This document shows, piece after piece, positions 10,118-17,485 of a stretch of DNA of 64,000 nt. Position numbers and translations under genes: made by a program. The first letter of the stretch is position 1, and the number at the start of each line of letters is the position of its first letter. The notes under the pieces are model-generated. The model was given only the letters and a program-made list of their open reading frames with translations, was not told the DNA's origin and did no database searches. The DNA comes from an uncultured Dongia sp. (GTDB lineage Bacteria > Pseudomonadota > Alphaproteobacteria > Dongiales > Dongiaceae). The DNA lies in contig NZ_CAKZGO010000006.1 of NCBI RefSeq assembly GCF_936916975.1, forward strand, positions 62,001 to 126,000, given 5' to 3'.

Positions 10118-10722
10118 TGTTCGACCGCGCCGTCCGGCGGCGCATCGATCCCTTCCTCGAACAGATTGCCGGCGCCGCTAAGGATCGGCGCATTGGTGCT
10201 GATCAGATTACCTGGGCGGGCTTTGCCATCGGCCTTCTGTGCATGGTGGCCGTGGCGCAAGGCTGGTATGGCGTGGGCCTCATCCTGCTGCTGGCCAATC
10301 GCCTGTGCGATGGGCTCGATGGTGCGGTGGCGCGCCTGACAGGGCCGACCGATCGCGGCGCCTATCTCGACATCGTGTTGGATTTCCTGTTTTACGCGGG
10401 CTTTGTCTTTGCCTGCGCGATTGCACAGCCCCAGGCGACGCTGGCTGCGGCTTTCCTCATCTTCAGCTTCGTCGGCACGGGGACAAGTTTTCTGGCCTTC
10501 GCCATCATCGCGGCACAGCGCAACTGGCCGGTTGATGTGGGCGGCAAGAAAGGTTTTGCGCATCTCGGCGGCCTGACCGAGGGCACCGAGACGATCTTCG
10601 TCTTCGTTGCCATGCTGCTATGGCCGGAAGCCTTTGCCACGCTTGCCTGGATATTTGGCGGCCTCTGCTGGCTCACCACCTTCAGCCGTATCGCAACGAC
10701 GTTACGGACATTGCGTCCTTAG
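10117..10722 (+). CDS. CDP-alcohol phosphatidyltransferase family protein
   Basis: A 201-residue integral membrane enzyme with its own CDP-alcohol signature: NRLCDGLDGAVARLTGPTD, then RGAYLDIVLDFLFYAG, so all catalytic aspartates are kept. It is separate from PssA and overlaps it by one base, so the two are probably translated together. The acceptor alcohol cannot be read from the sequence; phosphatidylglycerol phosphate, phosphatidylcholine and inositol-type products are all possible for the family. A longer open frame upstream, inside pssA, is a shadow. Confidence 0.88.
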   Translation: MFDRAVRRRIDPFLEQIAGAAKDRRIGADQITWAGFAIGLLCMVAVAQGWYGVGLILLLANRLCDGLDGAVARLTGPTDRGAYLDIVLDFLFYAGFVFACAIAQPQATLAAAFLIFSFVGTGTSFLAFAIIAAQRNWPVDVGGKKGFAHLGGLTEGTETIFVFVAMLLWPEAFATLAWIFGGLCWLTTFSRIATTLRTLRP

Positions 10723-10742
10723 CATCGGGCTGCTGCCTGAAG

Positions 10743-11465
10743 TTACTTGTGGCTGTGATGCGCCTGCAGCGTCTGCACCAGCTCTTCGAGCTTGGTCTTA
10801 TCCATCAGATAAAGATTGCGGCCCTTACGCTTGAGCAGGCCGCTCGGATAAAGCTGGCTCACGGCGCGGTTGACGGTCTCGCGCGTGGTGCTGGTGATGC
10901 CGGCGATTTCGTGCATCGGCGGCAAGGGGCGCACGACCCAGAGGCCGGGGACAGCAGCTTCCGGCTGCGCCATGCGGAGCAATTCGGCATAGACGCGCTG
11001 CGCCGCCTGCAGGGTCGAGAGTTCCATGATGCGCAGGCCGCTCTGGCGCACGAGGCGCGCCATGCGCTGCAGCAGCCGGAACGAGACCACGGCATTTGTC
11101 CGCACGAGATCCATGAAGACTTCCGGCGGCATGATGCAGAGTTCGGACTTTTCGATCGCCGTCACGCTGGCCGAGCGCGGCTGTTCATCGATCGCCGCCA
11201 GTTCGCCGAAGGATTCCCCCGGCTTGACCGTCGCCAGGGTGACTTCCTTGCCGGATGGCGAGAACGTGACCACAGCGACCGACCCCTTGAGGACGAAGAA
11301 TACCTCACGGGAGTTGGCACCCTTGTCGAGGACGGTCTGTCCCTTGTCACATATGCGCCAGCGACAGCGGGCCTCCAGCGCCTTCAAATCAGGTTCCGGT
11401 ATGCCCTCAAGCAGCGCAAAAGCGCGCAAGGTGCGTTCAACGGTTTGTGTCTGAGTCGTTCCCAT
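10743..11465 (-). CDS. Crp/Fnr-family transcriptional regulator
   Basis: The 240-residue product has an N-terminal cyclic-nucleotide-binding fold: VFFVLKGSVAVVT, then GESFGELAAIDEQPRSASV, which resembles the phosphate-binding cassette of cAMP-type members. A long dimerisation helix and a C-terminal winged helix (MHEIAGITSTTRETVNRAVSQL) follow. The FNR iron-sulfur cysteine cluster is absent. The start at 11465 is chosen because the family alignment begins shortly after it; an in-frame ATG at 11501 would add 12 residues and neither has a strong ribosome site. Target genes are unknown, but see the CRP-type palindrome at 43193. Confidence 0.88.
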   Translation of the reverse strand: MGTTQTQTVERTLRAFALLEGIPEPDLKALEARCRWRICDKGQTVLDKGANSREVFFVLKGSVAVVTFSPSGKEVTLATVKPGESFGELAAIDEQPRSASVTAIEKSELCIMPPEVFMDLVRTNAVVSFRLLQRMARLVRQSGLRIMELSTLQAAQRVYAELLRMAQPEAAVPGLWVVRPLPPMHEIAGITSTTRETVNRAVSQLYPSGLLKRKGRNLYLMDKTKLEELVQTLQAHHSHK

Positions 11466-11604
11466 GGCGGGCAGCATAATCGAAAGGTTTCGCCGCGCCA
11501 ACCGGCCGCGGCAATGATGGCTAAGAATGCACTCTTTCCGATCAGCACCCGATAATGCGGTGGTGCTACGATGCGATGGAACTCATCGTGAACGGCAACC
11601 TGAT

Positions 11605-12243
11605 CTACCAGCGCAGGCACAGCCTGCCAAGAACGGCTCCGACCGCGGTGACGATCCCGATGGCGCCCAGATACCAGATGGCGACATAAAACGGCGAATC
11701 ATTGTCACAATGGACTGCATAGAGGAGGGCACCGATACCGCCGGCGGCAAAACCGGCGATTGCGCCGGCCACGGTCGGCGATTGCGGCGCGCCATGACGA
11801 AGCGCCAATAGCGCCGCCCCAAGAGGACCGACGGCCATGAGCGGCACCATGGTCAGGCAATAGACGGGATTGAAGCCCATGGCGCTGGCTGGCCACTGGT
11901 CCATCGGCAACATCACCATCTCCAACAGCAACCCCAGCCCCAGCGGCACCAAGGCCAGCAATATCCATTTGAGCGCCGTCCTGGGCGCCGTCTGTGGGCG
12001 CGCCATGTGGAACAGCAACAGAGTTCCGAAAGCGGCGACGCTGGCGGCGACCAGGATCTTGAAGTCATAGCGCCAGGTCATAAGCGCGTCGCCGAAATCG
12101 GGCCGCATTTCCAGGAACGTCCGAAAGACGCCATAAGCCACCAGCAAGGCCAGCGGCAAGGCGAACGCGAAGGTGCGGCGGGACGACGTGGGTGGGCGGT
12201 CCTGATCCGCGACCAGGCTGCCGATAAGATCGTCGGTCTTCAT
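11605..12243 (-). CDS. nrsF: NrsF (DUF1109) family anti-sigma factor
   Basis: NrsF proteins are inner-membrane inhibitors of SigF-type ECF sigma factors. The 212-residue product has a short cytoplasmic N-terminus and about six membrane helices. Cys129 (NPVYC) and Cys179 (AVHC) lie close to the positions of the two cysteines known to matter in the Caulobacter homologue, consistent with redox or metal sensing. It overlaps sigF by four bases (ATGA), the usual sigma/anti-sigma arrangement, and is next to a bufferin operon. Confidence 0.9.
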   Translation of the reverse strand: MKTDDLIGSLVADQDRPPTSSRRTFAFALPLALLVAYGVFRTFLEMRPDFGDALMTWRYDFKILVAASVAAFGTLLLFHMARPQTAPRTALKWILLALVPLGLGLLLEMVMLPMDQWPASAMGFNPVYCLTMVPLMAVGPLGAALLALRHGAPQSPTVAGAIAGFAAGGIGALLYAVHCDNDSPFYVAIWYLGAIGIVTAVGAVLGRLCLRW

Positions 12244-12791
12244 GTCTCGCTCCTTCGGGCCGCCGCGGCGAGGGCGGCCAGCCCACGATGCAGCGCCACC
12301 CGGACAGCACCTTCACTCAGGGTGAGGCGCTTTGCAGTCTCGGCCGGCGACAGGCCATCGATTGAAATCGCCCGCACCACCTGGGACTGGCCCGGCGGCA
12401 GGGTTGCAAGATGCCGGTCCAGCGCCTCGGTCGAGAGCGTCTGCTCGGGCTCCGGCGCTGCCAGCGTTTCGAGCAGATCATCGACCGGCACCATGATGCG
12501 GCGGCCACGGCGGCGCAGATTGTCGATCAGCTTGTGGCGCGTGACCGCGCGCAACCAGGGCAGGATGGCTCGGTCGGCGTCCCAGCTGCCGCGCTTGAGA
12601 TGGATGGCCAGCAATGTTTCCTGCACGATGTCCTCGGCCTCCGCGATCTCATAACCCTGGCGCGAGAGTTCCCGCCTGACCCAGCGGCGCAGCATATCGG
12701 CCAAGGCGGTCAGCAGGCGCCGATAGGCCACCGCATCGCCCGCCTGGGCCGCGCGCATCCAACCGGCCAGTTCGTCTTCCAAATCACTCAC
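12240..12791 (-). CDS. sigF: RNA polymerase ECF sigma factor, SigF type
   Basis: The 183-residue sigma-70 family protein shows region 2 (LRRWVRRELSRQGYEIAEAEDIVQETLLAIHLKR, AILPWLRAVTRHKLIDNLRR) and region 4 (LATLPPGQSQVVRAISIDGLSPAETAKRLTLSEGAVRVALHRGL). It starts at GTG with AGG just upstream. The partner anti-sigma gene nrsF overlaps its 3' end. The divergent bufferin operon, and a SigF-type promoter before it, indicate the target. In Caulobacter the homologue answers to heavy metals and oxidants. Confidence 0.92.
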   Translation of the reverse strand: MSDLEDELAGWMRAAQAGDAVAYRRLLTALADMLRRWVRRELSRQGYEIAEAEDIVQETLLAIHLKRGSWDADRAILPWLRAVTRHKLIDNLRRRGRRIMVPVDDLLETLAAPEPEQTLSTEALDRHLATLPPGQSQVVRAISIDGLSPAETAKRLTLSEGAVRVALHRGLAALAAAARRSET

Positions 12792-12806
12792 ACCTGCATC
12801 CCCACA

Positions 12807-12831
12807 TACGGCGACCGGACGTCATTGTTAC
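12807..12831 (-). promoter_or_regulatory. Candidate SigF-dependent promoter for sigF-nrsF
   Basis: On the minus strand GTAACA (12831-12826) is followed after 15 bases by CGTA (12810-12807). This resembles the bufA1 promoter in the same gap and would give autoregulation. The implied leader is only about 10 nt and the spacer is one base short, so the call is tentative. Confidence 0.4.
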
Positions 12832-12898
12832 TTGCTGCCCATAGCATCGTGACGAACGCCGTTTTGACGGTAAACCGAGCTCGGCGGTCGTGTCGACT

Positions 12899-12924
12899 GT
12901 AACAACGCCGACCATGCCGCCGAA
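12899..12924 (+). promoter_or_regulatory. SigF-type promoter of the bufferin operon
   Basis: GTAACA (12899-12904), a 16-bp spacer, then CGAA (12921-12924). This matches the published Caulobacter SigF consensus GTAACC-N16-CGAA with one change. Transcription would start near 12930, about 45 nt before the bufA1 ATG. Confidence 0.7.
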
Positions 12925-12974
12925 CTGGTCTGGGCAGGGCCAATCAGGGCCCATGACATCAGGAGGAAATTACC

Positions 12975-13265
12975 ATGGATCGTCGTACTGTCAGCCTGGC
13001 CATTGCCGGCTCCCTGTTGACCGCGCTTGCCATGTCCAGCGCACCTGCTGCCGCCGATGACACCAAGGAAAAGTGCTTTGGCATCGCCATGGCGGGCAAG
13101 AATGATTGCGCGTCCGCGGGCAACAATTCCTGTGCCGGCCAATCCAAGGCCGATTTCGACAAGGCCGCCTGGAAGGCTGTTCCCAAGGGCACCTGCGAAA
13201 CTACGATGGTGAAGCTGCCGGATGGCACTGAGCGCGCCGGCACCTTGATGCCGATGGGCTCGTAA
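12975..13265 (+). CDS. bufA1: Bufferin precursor, BufA1 type (DUF2282)
   Basis: Bufferins are exported peptides whose cysteines are modified by the BufB/BufC pair so that they bind copper in the periplasm. The 96-residue precursor has a cleavable signal peptide (about residues 1-27, ending APAAA). The core has four cysteines, Cys34 (KEKC), Cys45 (KNDC), Cys53 (NNSC) and Cys74 (KGTC), in the BufA1 arrangement. A strong AGGAGG lies 8 nt before the ATG. It is the first gene of bufA1-bufB-bufC-doxX under a SigF-type promoter. Confidence 0.92.
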
Positions 13266-13291
13266 GTTCACGCCGTCATAGTTTCACCGCC

Positions 13292-14173
13292 GTGACCGCG
13301 CTCCGTCCCCTCGGTGCGGATGGCAGGAACCCGATCCCAGCATCTGCTGGGGTCGGGTTGCGGCCGCAGCACTACGCCGACATTCTTGGCGCGCCATCGC
13401 CACTAGGATGGTTCGAAGTACATCCTGAAAATTACCTGTGTGCGGGCGGGCCGCAACACGACGCGCTTGCGCAGATCCGCGCACAATATCCGCTCTCGTT
13501 TCACGGCGTCGGCCTGTCACTGGGCAGCGAGGCGCGGCCTGATGCACTTCATCTTGCGCGCCTGCGCGTGCTGATCGATCGCTATCAGCCGGCTCTGTTC
13601 TCAGAGCATCTCGCCTGGTCGAGCCATGGTGGAAAATTTCTCAATGACCTGCTGCCCTTGCCATATACGCAGCAGACACTCGACCGGTTCGTCAGTCATG
13701 TCGACGAGACGCAGGAGGCGCTCGGCCGGCAAATCCTGATCGAGAATCCGTCGCTCTATGTTCAGTTTTCTGCCAGCGACATGACTGAACCGGAATTTCT
13801 GAACACCCTGGCGCAACGGACCGGCTGCGGCCTGTTGCTCGACATCAACAACGCATACGTCACCAGCATCAATTTTGCCCGCGATCCCATAGCCTATCTT
13901 GCCGCCTTTCCCTGGCAGCATGTGCGCGAGATACATCTTGCCGGACATGCGACGGAATCCGATGCGCTTGGACGCCCCCTGCTGATCGATGCCCATGACG
14001 GCCCTGTCTGCGACGCGGTCTGGGCACTCTATCGTCGTATGGTCCGGCAGATGGGCGCGGTGCCGACCTTGATCGAATGGGACCAGGAGATGCCGGTTTG
14101 GGACGCGCTGCTAGGCGAAGCCCTTTCCGCCGATCGGATACTGCAGCAGGAGCGTGACCGTGCCGTCGCGTGA
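13292..14173 (+). CDS. bufB: DUF692 multinuclear non-heme iron oxidase (MNIO), BufB
   Basis: MNIO enzymes use a multi-iron centre to oxidise cysteines of ribosomal peptides; BufB is reported to form thiooxazoles in bufferins. The 293-residue TIM-barrel protein shows likely metal and active-site residues in GVGLRPQHYADIL, WFEVHPENYL, FHGVGLSLGS, LLLDINNAYV, EIHLAGHA, LIDAHDGPV and LIEWDQEMP. The start is GTG. It follows bufA1 by 26 bp and overlaps bufC by 20 bp. Confidence 0.92.
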   Translation: MTALRPLGADGRNPIPASAGVGLRPQHYADILGAPSPLGWFEVHPENYLCAGGPQHDALAQIRAQYPLSFHGVGLSLGSEARPDALHLARLRVLIDRYQPALFSEHLAWSSHGGKFLNDLLPLPYTQQTLDRFVSHVDETQEALGRQILIENPSLYVQFSASDMTEPEFLNTLAQRTGCGLLLDINNAYVTSINFARDPIAYLAAFPWQHVREIHLAGHATESDALGRPLLIDAHDGPVCDAVWALYRRMVRQMGAVPTLIEWDQEMPVWDALLGEALSADRILQQERDRAVA

Positions 14174-14942
14174 GACAATGCAGGCATCGTTCGCCGCTGC
14201 CATTTGGGCACCTGAACGAGACGTGCCCGCAGGCATCTCGCCGCAGCGGAATTTTGCGGTCTACCGGAACAATGTCTATGCCGGTCTGATCAAGAGCCTG
14301 CAGGCGCGCTTTCCAGTGGTTCAGCGTCTGGTTGGGGATGAATTCTTCGCACGATGTGCCGGCATCTTTGTCGAACGGCAGCCACCGCTGTCACCGGTAA
14401 TGATGGAGTATGGCGCCGATTTTCCGGGTTTTCTGGCGGCGTTCGAACCGATCCGTCATCTGCCGTATCTGGCTCCGGTCGCGGAATTGGAATGGCAATA
14501 TCATGTGGCACAGCATGGTCCCGACGCACAGCCGCTGGACACCGCAGCGCTCGCGACATTGCCGTTGGCGGAAATGGATCGTCTCACCTTCAGCCTGCAT
14601 CCGACATGCCACATTCTGGCGTCGCCTTATCCGATCCTGTCGATCTGGCGCACCAACACTTTCGATACCGTCACTCAAGAGATAGCGGCCGGCAGTCCGG
14701 GCGAAACCGTCATGCTGGTTCGCCCGCACAATGTCGTGCTGCTGCTGCCGCTGACTGACGGTATCGACGTTTTTGTGACGCATCTTCAGCAGGGGACTGC
14801 GCTGGCTGAAGCCGCCGCATTGGCACAAGCAGCCAGTACCCGGTTCGATCTTGCCGGCGCCTTGGCGCTGTTGTTCCGTGTGCAGGCGCTCTCGGGGTTT
14901 CATGCCATCAATGCTCAAAATGGAAATAGCGATGTCTCTTAA
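14154..14942 (+). CDS. bufC: DUF2063 partner protein, BufC
   Basis: BufC/HvfC proteins present the precursor peptide to the MNIO partner. The 262-residue product has the N-terminal DUF2063 helical domain (RNFAVYRNNVYAGLIKSLQARFPVVQRLVG, FFARCAGIFVERQPP, YGADFPGFLAAFEP). Its C-terminal half is more variable and probably binds the peptide. It starts at GTG inside the 3' end of bufB and ends inside doxX, so the three genes are translationally linked. The DNA-binding name given to this family in databases is unlikely to be its role here. Confidence 0.9.
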   Translation: MTVPSRETMQASFAAAIWAPERDVPAGISPQRNFAVYRNNVYAGLIKSLQARFPVVQRLVGDEFFARCAGIFVERQPPLSPVMMEYGADFPGFLAAFEPIRHLPYLAPVAELEWQYHVAQHGPDAQPLDTAALATLPLAEMDRLTFSLHPTCHILASPYPILSIWRTNTFDTVTQEIAAGSPGETVMLVRPHNVVLLLPLTDGIDVFVTHLQQGTALAEAAALAQAASTRFDLAGALALLFRVQALSGFHAINAQNGNSDVS

Positions 14943-15375
14943 GCAAATGTTTGATCTCTTCCCGCGCATTCCCAACGACTTGATTGCGCTTTTGGCCCGC
15001 ATCGGCATCGGCACAATCTTTCTGCGGTCCGGCCTTCTCAAGCTCGAGGGCTGGAGCAATGGCAACACTTTGTTCCTGTTCCAGAGCGAGTATCACCTGC
15101 CATTAATTCCGCCCGAACTTGCGGCACCTTTGGCAATGTCCATGGAACTCGCCATGCCGATGTTCCTGTTCGCCGGGCTGGCGACACGCTTTGCGGCCCT
15201 GGCGCTTCTCGGCATGACGCTGGTCATCGAGATTTTCGTCTATCCGAACGCCTTCGACACCCATGCGGTCTGGGCCGTGGCGTTGCTATTCCTCATCAAG
15301 TTTGGGGCGGGGAAGCTATCGCTTGACCATCTTCTGAAGAATATGGCGGCTCAGCGAGCCGGCGCACTGCGGTGA
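14932..15375 (+). CDS. DoxX-family membrane protein
   Basis: A 147-residue protein with four hydrophobic helices and the DoxX-like pattern LLARIGIGTIFLRSGLLKLEGW near the N-terminus. DoxX proteins are frequent last members of bufferin-type operons; a redox or quinone-linked role is suggested but not proven. The start is taken at ATG 14932, overlapping the bufC stop by 11 bases; ATG 14911 is an alternative. The 3' end overlaps the convergent MFS gene by 25 bp. Confidence 0.85.
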   Translation: MSLKQMFDLFPRIPNDLIALLARIGIGTIFLRSGLLKLEGWSNGNTLFLFQSEYHLPLIPPELAAPLAMSMELAMPMFLFAGLATRFAALALLGMTLVIEIFVYPNAFDTHAVWAVALLFLIKFGAGKLSLDHLLKNMAAQRAGALR

Positions 15376-16592
15376 GGTGCCGCGTAGCGGCCCGTCACAT
15401 ACCAGGCGAAGGCCAGCAGCTGCAGAACGAGAAGTGCCCCGAAGGCGATGGCGTAGCTCGTCGTCGGCGATTGGGAAAATCCGTGCCCCAGATGATCGAG
15501 CACCCAGCCGATCGATGACTGGAACAGAGCGGAGGCCAGGAACAGCATCAGATTGGCGGCGGATTGCGCGCGGCCGGCGAGGTCGCGTCCGAAATGGGCG
15601 CCGAGTGTTGCGTAGCCGAGATTGGCGGCCTGGCCGGTGAAGCCGTAGATGATCCAGATCACCGGCAATGGCACGGGCAGGGCGAAGATCATCGCAAGCT
15701 GTGCCGCGACATAGAGCGAAAAGGCGCCGGCCACGACGGTTTTGAGGCCGATACCACGGCGCTGCACTCGGTCGGCGATAATGCCCGTCAGCAGCGAGCC
15801 GATGGCAAAGGCAAGGCCCAGCACCATCAATTGCTGGCCGGCGGTATGACGATCGAGGCCGATCACGTCGGTCATCCAGCGCGTCGCCCACAGGGTCTGG
15901 ACGGCGATGAAGGTGCCGGAGATTGCGGCCACCATCGGGGTTACGCGCCAGAAGATCGGATCCTTGAAGATGCCGAGATAGCCGCGCAGCTGTGCGGCAA
16001 GCGCGACTGGCCGATGATCGTCGTCCCGCTTGGGCACCAGGAAGTAGATCGAGGCGGTGACGCACAGTGTGAAGACAACCAGCACGGCGAAAAGCGCACG
16101 CCAGCCGATGATGTCGGCGGCAAGGTTCGCAGGATACGTGCCGCATAGGAAGCCGAGGCCGCCAAAGGTGACGACCGTGGAATTGCCAAGCGCCAGTCGC
16201 TCCGGCGGCAGCCACATCGCATTGGCCTTGAAGGCTGACATCAGGCAACCGCCAAGGCCGATGCCGATCAGCAGCCGCGCCCCAGCAAGACTGGCCGTCG
16301 TTTCACCCATGGCAAACCAGGCGGCACCGCTTGCCGCCAACAGCAACAGCCATGTCTGCACAAGCCGCGGTCCGAAGCGGTCGAGCAGCAATCCCAGCGG
16401 TAGCTGGAACAGCACGAAGCCGTAGAGATACATCGATGTCATCAAGCCGAGATCGGTATTGCTGAGCGAGAGTTCGGCGATGAGATCGTCGGAAATGGCG
16501 GCGTTCACGACACGGAACAGATAGGACGTGAAATAGCCCGCGGCGAAGGGGCCGAGGGCGCGCAGCAGCGTGCTGCGTGTCAGCGGTGTCAT
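15351..16592 (-). CDS. MFS transporter
   Basis: A 413-residue, roughly 12-helix major facilitator. The loop 2-3 region GLLLDRFGPRL resembles motif A, and GARLLIGIGLGGCLMSAF the motif C/B region. Its substrate is not evident. The start ATG overlaps the stop of the preceding DMT transporter by four bases (16589-16592), so the two are probably one transcript. The C-terminus overlaps doxX by 25 bp tail to tail. Confidence 0.88.
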   Translation of the reverse strand: MTPLTRSTLLRALGPFAAGYFTSYLFRVVNAAISDDLIAELSLSNTDLGLMTSMYLYGFVLFQLPLGLLLDRFGPRLVQTWLLLLAASGAAWFAMGETTASLAGARLLIGIGLGGCLMSAFKANAMWLPPERLALGNSTVVTFGGLGFLCGTYPANLAADIIGWRALFAVLVVFTLCVTASIYFLVPKRDDDHRPVALAAQLRGYLGIFKDPIFWRVTPMVAAISGTFIAVQTLWATRWMTDVIGLDRHTAGQQLMVLGLAFAIGSLLTGIIADRVQRRGIGLKTVVAGAFSLYVAAQLAMIFALPVPLPVIWIIYGFTGQAANLGYATLGAHFGRDLAGRAQSAANLMLFLASALFQSSIGWVLDHLGHGFSQSPTTSYAIAFGALLVLQLLAFAWYVTGRYAAPHRSAPAR

Positions 16593-17485
16593 GCGACGTT
16601 GAGTGGCTGGCGTGCGGCGCGGCGCTGGTCATAGAGCGTGTTGCCGGCGACGGCTGCCAGCACCAGCGCACCCCCATAGAGCGCGAAGACGCCCGGGTTC
16701 TCGCCCAGGAACAGGAACACCCAGAAGGCGCCCAGCACCGTTTCCACCAGCGAGATGAGCGCTGCTTCCGCTGCTGGGATCAACCGCGCGCCGGTGGTGA
16801 AGAAGATGAGCCCGATCGACAATTGCACCGCGCCGAACAGGAACAGATAGAAGAGATCGCTGGTCGAGACGTCCAAGCTCTCTACGCCCGCCATACAGAA
16901 GCCGATGATGCCCATGATGGCGGTACCCAGGCAGGTGGCTGGCGTCATGCGGACATGGCTGTAACGGCGGGTGAGTACCGTGGCGCAGGCGAAGCTGATG
17001 GCGATGACGCCGGAGAGGATCATGCCGGTGGCATCGGTGTGCCCCTCCGCCTTGGAGACCATCAGCAGAATGCCGGAGAGTGCCACCAGCATCGCGATCA
17101 CGCGGGGCCAGCCGAGACGTTCGCCCATCCAGACCCAGGCGAGCAGGCCCGCGATGAGCGGTGCCGTCGATTGCACGACCAGGATGAGGGCGACGGTCGC
17201 ATGCTCAAGCGCGATGACGAAGGAGATCGAGGCGGTCGCGAAGCAGATGCCGACGCCGATGCCGCCGGGACCCATGTTGCGGAAATGGCTCCAGGTCTGG
17301 CGCCCGTCACGGATCAGCAGGAAAATCAGCAGCGCCACGGCGGCGATGGCGCCGCGCCAACCGACAGTGACCCATGGCTCGACCGTGATCTGCCGCGCGA
17401 TCAGCCCACCGAGGCTCCAGCAGATCGCAGCCGCCACGACGAGCAGGGTGCCCTTGCGGTGCAGTGAGGCGGCATTGTCCGACAT
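16589..17485 (-). CDS. EamA/DMT-family transporter
   Basis: A 298-residue, ten-helix drug/metabolite transporter with two EamA repeats (first AAAICWSLGGLIARQITVEPWVTVGWRG, second from about residue 155). The start is set at ATG 17485 because GGGGGAAG lies just upstream; the frame extends to 17560 but without support. It lies between a LysR regulator gene, 90 bp upstream on the same strand, and the MFS gene. The substrate is unknown. Confidence 0.87.
   Translation of the reverse strand: MSDNAASLHRKGTLLVVAAAICWSLGGLIARQITVEPWVTVGWRGAIAAVALLIFLLIRDGRQTWSHFRNMGPGGIGVGICFATASISFVIALEHATVALILVVQSTAPLIAGLLAWVWMGERLGWPRVIAMLVALSGILLMVSKAEGHTDATGMILSGVIAISFACATVLTRRYSHVRMTPATCLGTAIMGIIGFCMAGVESLDVSTSDLFYLFLFGAVQLSIGLIFFTTGARLIPAAEAALISLVETVLGAFWVFLFLGENPGVFALYGGALVLAAVAGNTLYDQRRAARQPLNVA

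Follow-up and report, generated by a model that had tools for sequence, protein, structure and literature searches.

A bufferin locus with a divergent SigF/NrsF pair in an uncultured Dongia sp., and a predicted SigF regulon with two bufferin classes and methionine-sulfoxide repair genes

A complete Buf1 locus facing a SigF/NrsF pair

We analysed a 64,000-nucleotide stretch of an uncultured Dongia sp. genome (RefSeq assembly GCF_936916975.1, contig NZ_CAKZGO010000006.1, positions 62,001 to 126,000; the whole stretch is hereafter the window), in which positions 11605-15375 carry nrsF and sigF, encoding an anti-sigma factor and an extracytoplasmic function (ECF) sigma factor, divergent from the bufferin operon bufA1-bufB1-bufC1-doxX. 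This is a genuine and complete locus of a known type, the same arrangement having been published for Caulobacter. Very likely, an ECF16-type SigF/NrsF switch drives this Buf1 operon, together with a small regulon in trans, in response to copper and thiol stress in the periplasm. The pairing of SigF with bufferins, known in detail from Caulobacter, is extended here to another genus with a fuller predicted regulon; what is new is that predicted regulon, with its comparative support, and a sharper hypothesis for DoxX. The genome comprises 5.48 Mb in 47 contigs. All six genes of the locus were found with Pfam and NCBIfam profiles (scores in bits), and the gene content and both promoter matches are as follows:

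nrsF, 11605-12243, minus strand: six-helix membrane anti-sigma factor (Pfam PF06532 NrsF, 166.6; cut-off 26.8)
sigF, 12240-12791, minus strand: ECF16-type sigma factor, GTG start (NCBIfam NF009165, 239.6; cut-off 198)
Predicted SigF promoter of sigF-nrsF, 12807-12831, minus strand: GTAAC-N16-CGTA
Predicted SigF promoter of the bufA1 operon, 12899-12924, plus strand: GTAAC-N17-CGAA
bufA1, 12975-13265, plus strand: exported bufferin precursor (Pfam DUF2282, 79.2; cut-off 22.4)
bufB1, 13292-14173, plus strand: MNIO-family bufferin maturase (NCBIfam NF050167 MNIO_BufB, 380.8; cut-off 310)
bufC1, 14154-14942, plus strand: DUF2063 partner of the MNIO enzyme (Pfam PF09836, 87.8; cut-off 27.2)
doxX, 14932-15375, plus strand: DoxX-family membrane protein (Pfam PF07681, 61.5; cut-off 23.6)

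These profiles bear out the gene set proposed in an initial annotation of this DNA (a precursor with four cysteines, an MNIO enzyme, a DUF2063 partner, DoxX and a divergent ECF sigma/anti-sigma pair), and the names SigF/NrsF, BufA1-B-C and DoxX can be retained. The span proposed there, 12240-15375, covers the other five genes but omits nrsF. The overlapping gene order that it described is correct for bufB1/bufC1 (20 nt) and bufC1/doxX (11 nt), provided that the listed starts are correct, but bufA1 and bufB1 are 26 nt apart. The start codon of bufC1 is uncertain (14154, 14160 or 14178), and doxX starts at either 14932 or 14920. The sequence aggagg lies 9-14 nt 5' of the bufA1 ATG. BufA1 contains four cysteines (Cys34, 45, 53 and 74), and its N-terminus, judged by eye, resembles a Sec signal peptide; with such a precursor, an MNIO BufB maturase and a DUF2063 partner, the locus has the composition of a Buf1 cluster. 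In published Buf1 precursors the four cysteines are conserved, the central ones being modified and the first and last joined in a disulfide, and DoxX is listed as a core gene (PMC12452194; here and below, literature statements refer to excerpts of the cited papers). BufC1 scores under the NCBIfam HvfC equivalog cut-off (48.4 < 142) and is hence not classed as HvfC; similarly, DoxX falls under the HvfX cut-off (NF050144, 49.7 < 80) and is assigned to the DoxX family, not to HvfX. An Rfam search of positions 10500-17000 gave no match at gathering thresholds.

SigF-type promoters at the locus

The published Caulobacter consensus is GTAACC-N16-CGAA (PMC3511200), from promoters mapped by 5' rapid amplification of cDNA ends for two DUF2282 operons and by primer extension for sigF (PMC3511200). 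The predicted bufA1 promoter differs from it in the sixth base, which is A in the window, and the sigF box reads CGTA rather than CGAA; assignment of both to the ECF16 promoter class is by sequence match alone. Among genomes of the same genus, the motif lies 5' of sigF in 6/6 examined (a seventh, G004, stands outside the count) and 5' of bufA1 in six. The sigF GTG start falls 14-17 nt past the -10 box in 6/6 congeners examined (12791-12831 in the window), so that the sigF mRNA leader would be very short, provided that the start codon is correct.

Across all loci counted, the motif tends to occur where the regulator genes do. GTAAC-N15-18-CGWA was found within 300 bp upstream of 19 of the 23 bufA1 genes that have sigF/nrsF close by, compared with 5 of the 78 that do not (Fisher p 1.8e-12), a value that overstates the evidence because some rows come from the same or near-identical species. 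The count omits L174-L185, ten of which repeat counted loci; the two that do not, L177 (motif present, with an NrsF fragment in the stretch) and L185 (no motif), would turn the second figure into 6/80. As for the five motif-bearing bufA1 genes away from sigF/nrsF (L049, L066, L114, L156 and L173), the genome of L156 encodes NrsF elsewhere, and a sigma fragment lies at the edge of L173.

A second bufferin operon under the same motif

One of the 50 motif matches in the window genome precedes a second MNIO locus, on contig C35:

bufA2-bufB2-bufC2 operon, L147 5082-7036 (contig C35), minus strand: SigF-type motif 120 bp upstream of bufA2; no adjoining DoxX

We considered whether this locus is another Buf1 and rejected that assignment, given that its precursor matches NCBIfam BufA2 (NF050166, 90 > 60). 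The maturase is again MNIO_BufB (384.7 > 310), and the partner was assigned through similarity to BufC of other loci, scoring under the HvfC equivalog cut-off (42.4 < 142). The motif stands before bufA2 in all five same-genus genomes that have a Buf2 locus (G000, G002, G003, G005 and G006), and also at L172 and L173, both from Caulobacter genomes. Caulobacter is reported to have a second SigF-dependent operon in trans, CC2907-2905, in which CC2907 is labelled DUF2282 (PMC3511200); this is probably the same case, by analogy with L172 (Caulobacter sp. Root343), which is of the BufA2 type. Sigma and NrsF genes have been reported in Buf1 but not in Buf2 clusters (PMC12452194, in the excerpt cited). 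Since the Dongia Buf2 operon lies on a different contig from sigF, the predicted SigF control would reach across contigs and could escape surveys based on neighbouring genes.

Two further Buf2 arrangements were observed. In L173 (uncultured Caulobacter L109), bufA1, doxX, bufA2, bufB and bufC stand in one row, with a SigF-type motif before both precursors; a single maturase may serve both precursor classes there. In genus g4 (L163, L168 and L170), the Buf2 operon lies about 3 kb from a BufB1/BufC1-like operon, and a more distant sigma gene is found nearby.

The predicted trans regulon

The cross-genome footprint of the motif covers six genomes: every N16/17 match was examined in G000, G003, G005 and G006 (in G000 also N18), while the footprint is partial for G001 (16/32 matches) and G002 (8/22), where matches were chosen partly by eye for resemblance. 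In five of the six (G000, G001, G002, G005 and G006) the motif precedes a DUF1223 gene (189.4 > 30.7) and, in the same five, an MsrQ-like gene (L026, Ferric_reduct 49.7 > 28; under the MsrQ equivalog cut-off, 114.3 < 130). It precedes msrA in three (G001, G005 and G006; TIGR00401, 215.1 > 108.1) and the gene of a cytosolic Oxidored_molyb protein in three (G000, G001 and G003; 141.2 > 24), and is absent at four more distant Oxidored_molyb homologues (G004, G009, G010 and G020). No N16/17 match of G003 precedes DUF1223, MsrQ or MsrA, and none of G000 precedes MsrA. The boxes are kept while the spacers mostly differ, a pattern expected of a promoter, and as a rough guide chance would place the motif before about 2e-6 genes in at least three genomes, if the genomes are taken as independent, with 4,500 ortholog groups and a 100-bp window. 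Genes sharing the motif in two genomes, such as an M16 peptidase gene and a DsbD_N-domain gene whose conserved spacer contains TATAAT, are not claimed as regulon members.

One further candidate was found in the window genome:

CopM-family gene (109.2 > 90 bits), L225 601-1477, contig C23: immediately follows a gene that by eye resembles a c-type cytochrome gene; the SigF-type motif lies between the two, 34 bp upstream of the CopM gene

CopM as a conserved target was rejected, the motif being absent at nine other DUF305 loci. Also rejected was the idea that the motif marks the MsrP-like gene across most of the genus, from which it is absent at L198, L199, L202, L207 and L208; the exception is G004 (L215/L219), where a motif stands some 29 bp before a possible start codon.

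Taken together, one SigF signal seems to precede both bufferin classes and methionine-sulfoxide repair genes, so that, on this predicted regulon, a single sensor would seemingly command all of them. Our literature search found no paper joining DUF1223 with copper and, among the matches listed, none joining SigF with these combined targets. The regulon extends a known logic, as MsrP/YedY and a second, SigF-dependent bufferin operon are already known from Caulobacter. The metal-stress role put forward in the initial annotation agrees with the SigF/ECF16 consensus at both promoters and with the second bufferin, the Msr genes and, in the window genome, CopM in the predicted regulon.

The NrsF sensor and a proposed mechanism

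Where the initial annotation described two membrane cysteines in the anti-sigma factor, the protein has three cysteines in all (Cys129, Cys179 and Cys209), of which the first two are conserved: Cys129 is kept in 26/26 and Cys179 in 23/26 aligned NrsF rows. The protein thus corresponds to the anti-sigma partner of ECF16 pairs, a DUF1109/NrsF protein with six helices and two conserved cysteines, although it scores below the NCBIfam NrsF equivalog cut-off (84.7 < 300). The AlphaFold model (15 sequences; predicted local distance difference test, pLDDT, 89.7) has six membrane-length stretches, the third kinked, and places Cys129 near one end of the fourth helix and Cys179 just past the fifth, on the same side; given an N-in topology, that side would be periplasmic. 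The numbering of the two residues is identical to that of C129 and C179 in Bradyrhizobium OsrA, where mutants indicate that C179 is required for the response to H2O2 and C129 for retention of the sigma factor (PMC3420878). In Caulobacter NrsF, C131 and C181 are required to keep SigF targets low (PMC3511200).

How the switch senses stress, that copper induces it and how the peptide is modified we infer from these and other published relatives. NrsF would hold SigF at the membrane until oxidation or metal binding at its periplasmic-side cysteines, with Cys179 as the sensor and Cys129 serving to hold the sigma factor, releases it. Freed SigF would then act on the two back-to-back promoters and on the small trans regulon. 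BufB1 and BufC1 would oxidise the two inner cysteines of BufA1 to thiooxazoles, the outer two would form a disulfide, and the mature peptide would chelate periplasmic copper. To this the trans regulon would add Buf2, MsrA (in three congeners), the MsrQ-like protein, the exported DUF1223 protein, the cytosolic molybdoenzyme and, in the window genome, CopM.

Several observations weigh against this scheme. The motif is missing at four of the 23 bufA1 genes with sigF/nrsF nearby (L100, L101, L103 and L106), and before sigF it was found in 15 of 25 rows and not in the other ten, fragments and near-duplicates counted. It is not enriched genome-wide, with 50 matches in the window genome against 415 for a reversed control, so that a single match means little and position and conservation alone support the promoter reading. 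Of the genus g4 Buf2 loci, the three readable ones (L163, L168 and L170) lack the motif, L171 being cut, and G009, the only g4 genome checked of those lacking the Buf2 motif, encodes NrsF proteins. The CopM link comes from a single genome, in view of the nine DUF305 loci without the motif. Finally, chromate, cadmium and H2O2 are among the inducers published for such systems, and copper need therefore not be the sole signal.

This last point leads to two other views of the signal. The regulon might answer oxidants (H2O2, HOCl or disulfide stress) first, with bufferins scavenging thiols or protecting cysteine and methionine residues and copper being secondary. Msr genes do recur in ECF16 regulons (PMC8315932), Bradyrhizobium EcfF/OsrA answers H2O2 via C179 (PMC3420878), and MsrA, the MsrQ-like gene and, in two genomes, the DsbD_N-domain gene stand behind the motif here. 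However, copper induces the Caulobacter SigF regulon in all conditions tested and a sigF::Tn5 mutant is copper-sensitive (PMC8224329), and CopM bears the motif in the window genome; we regard an oxidant-first regulon as unlikely. That the operon mainly handles another metal, such as gold, silver, chromate, cadmium or mercury, appears very unlikely. It would fit the chromate and cadmium response of Caulobacter SigF (PMC3511200), the gold response of GIG operons, and a Burkholderia contaminans plasmid locus of the same gene order that adjoins mer genes and chrA, but Caulobacter Buf1 chelates Cu(I) as well as Cu(II) and helps growth when copper is in excess (PMC12452194). Periplasmic copper together with thiol stress is the signal that we favour.

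DoxX, a regular member of bufferin loci

DoxX was initially seen as an added partner that made this locus special, a view that the distribution of the gene does not support. In a survey of the best 80 of 492 BufB1 relatives found, 72 loci contain DoxX, listed after bufC, and it is present in the published operons of Caulobacter, Cupriavidus and Legionella. Of the eight loci without it, five break off no more than about 350 bp from the last buf gene detected; in L059, which has about 1.5 kb left, no BufC or DoxX was detected, and in L099 and L109 DoxX is missing from flanks longer than 4 kb. In the same survey sigF and nrsF accompany 15 of the 80 loci, divergently in 11 and downstream on the same strand in four, and the closest named BufB1 relative is that of a metagenome-assembled genome labelled Dongia mobilis (L038, 67% identity), which matches the congener G003 exactly in BufA1 and promoter. 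Relatives of this DoxX were also found on plasmids, in 301 records, of which 60 are from Escherichia.

What DoxX does we can only infer. Its AlphaFold model is confident (pLDDT 97.2), and R23, K37, E72, G82, R86, W114, G125 and D132 do not vary among 56 sequences. Two paralogues outside bufferin loci (L036 and L037, the L037 alignment covering the second half) largely retain the charged residues of this set, which are therefore a mark of the DoxX family and not of a bufferin role; we rejected them as bufferin-specific. Action through conserved cysteines of its own was likewise rejected, as 48 of 86 bufferin-locus DoxX proteins have none. The DoxX profile matched no PDB sequence up to E 1, and Foldseek with the model found nothing at E 0.001. 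Its best match is a weak likeness to NACHO/TMEM35A (9h9e_B; E 0.079, template modeling score, TM, 0.59), and a further weak likeness is to the vitamin K-dependent gamma-glutamyl carboxylase (9bum_A; E 2.2, TM 0.59). Gamma-carboxylase uses reduced vitamin K.

Three congeners (G001, G002 and G004) have a further bufferin locus with a type II NADH dehydrogenase (NDH-2)-like gene between doxX and bufB (for L150, the one analysed with Pfam, Pyr_redox_2 156.4 and NDH2_C 41.3). These loci, L150 (3549-9355), L153 and L156, consist of a four-cysteine precursor, DoxX, the NDH-2-like gene, BufB and BufC; at L150 a patatin-like gene, identified by eye, lies upstream of the set. On a Rhizobium sophoriradicis plasmid (L332) the order is DUF2282-DUF692-DUF2063-DoxX-NAD(P)/FAD-dependent oxidoreductase, preceded by patatin-like and 3-hydroxybutyrate dehydrogenase genes and followed by a gene with an adenylate cyclase domain. 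In Legionella, such a cluster includes an NADH dehydrogenase with a DoxX domain, and a likeness of DoxX to DoxD of thiosulphate:quinone oxidoreductase has been named (PMC5413113). The doxX of the window itself has no NADH dehydrogenase-like neighbour. It has been proposed earlier that bufferin DoxX takes part in binding copper (PMC13097082) or that it protects against oxidative or sulphur stress (PMC12452194).

The fold likeness, the NDH-2-like neighbours and the literature make a quinone-linked role of DoxX worth testing and are not proof of it; they nonetheless offer a testable idea for a so far unexplained protein. In its full form, DoxX would be a quinone-coupled redox module between the quinone pool and bufferin cysteines or copper, alone in the SigF operon and accompanied by NDH-2 elsewhere, through which SigF would run copper buffering and thiol/methionine repair with both bufferin classes; this we consider distinctly doubtful. 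Alternatively, DoxX might be unrelated to the peptide, a general redox or sulfur protein that is merely co-regulated, as the charged residues largely common to the two same-genome paralogues, the long flanks of L099 and L109 and the DoxX-free Buf2 operon of the window genome would allow. Its presence after bufC in nine-tenths of the related loci surveyed makes such a bystander role somewhat unlikely.

Comparison with known systems

The closest described counterpart is Caulobacter vibrioides/crescentus CC3252-CC3257, with sigF-nrsF and an operon DUF2282-DUF692-DUF2063-DoxX in which DoxX is CC3257 (PMC3511200). It resembles the Dongia locus in its genes, SigF/NrsF pairing, promoter consensus, the two NrsF cysteines and a second bufferin-type operon in trans. 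The difference lies in the further targets: in Caulobacter this is MsrP/YedY (CC2748; an MsrPQ pair in PMC8224329), whereas in the genus of the window the motif precedes genes for an MsrQ-like protein, MsrA, DUF1223, a cytosolic molybdoenzyme and, in one genome, CopM, with five MsrP-like genes lacking it and one, in G004, having it. The GIG operons of Cupriavidus metallidurans and Legionella pneumophila likewise have DUF2282, DUF692, DUF2063 and DoxX genes (PMC5413113), but for that of Legionella another regulation, by RpoS, has been suggested. On the Burkholderia contaminans plasmid pB1701 (NZ_CP092854.1), NrsF and sigma genes are divergent from DUF2282-DUF692-DUF2063-DoxX, as in the window, but this locus is plasmid-borne and lies near mer (mercury) genes and the chromate gene chrA. 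Finally, the ECF16 systems BcrS/AbcS of Brucella and EcfF/OsrA of Bradyrhizobium share the six-helix DUF1109/NrsF protein, C129/C179, GTAAC...CG promoters and Msr targets, but the excerpts available for them name no bufferin operon among the targets.

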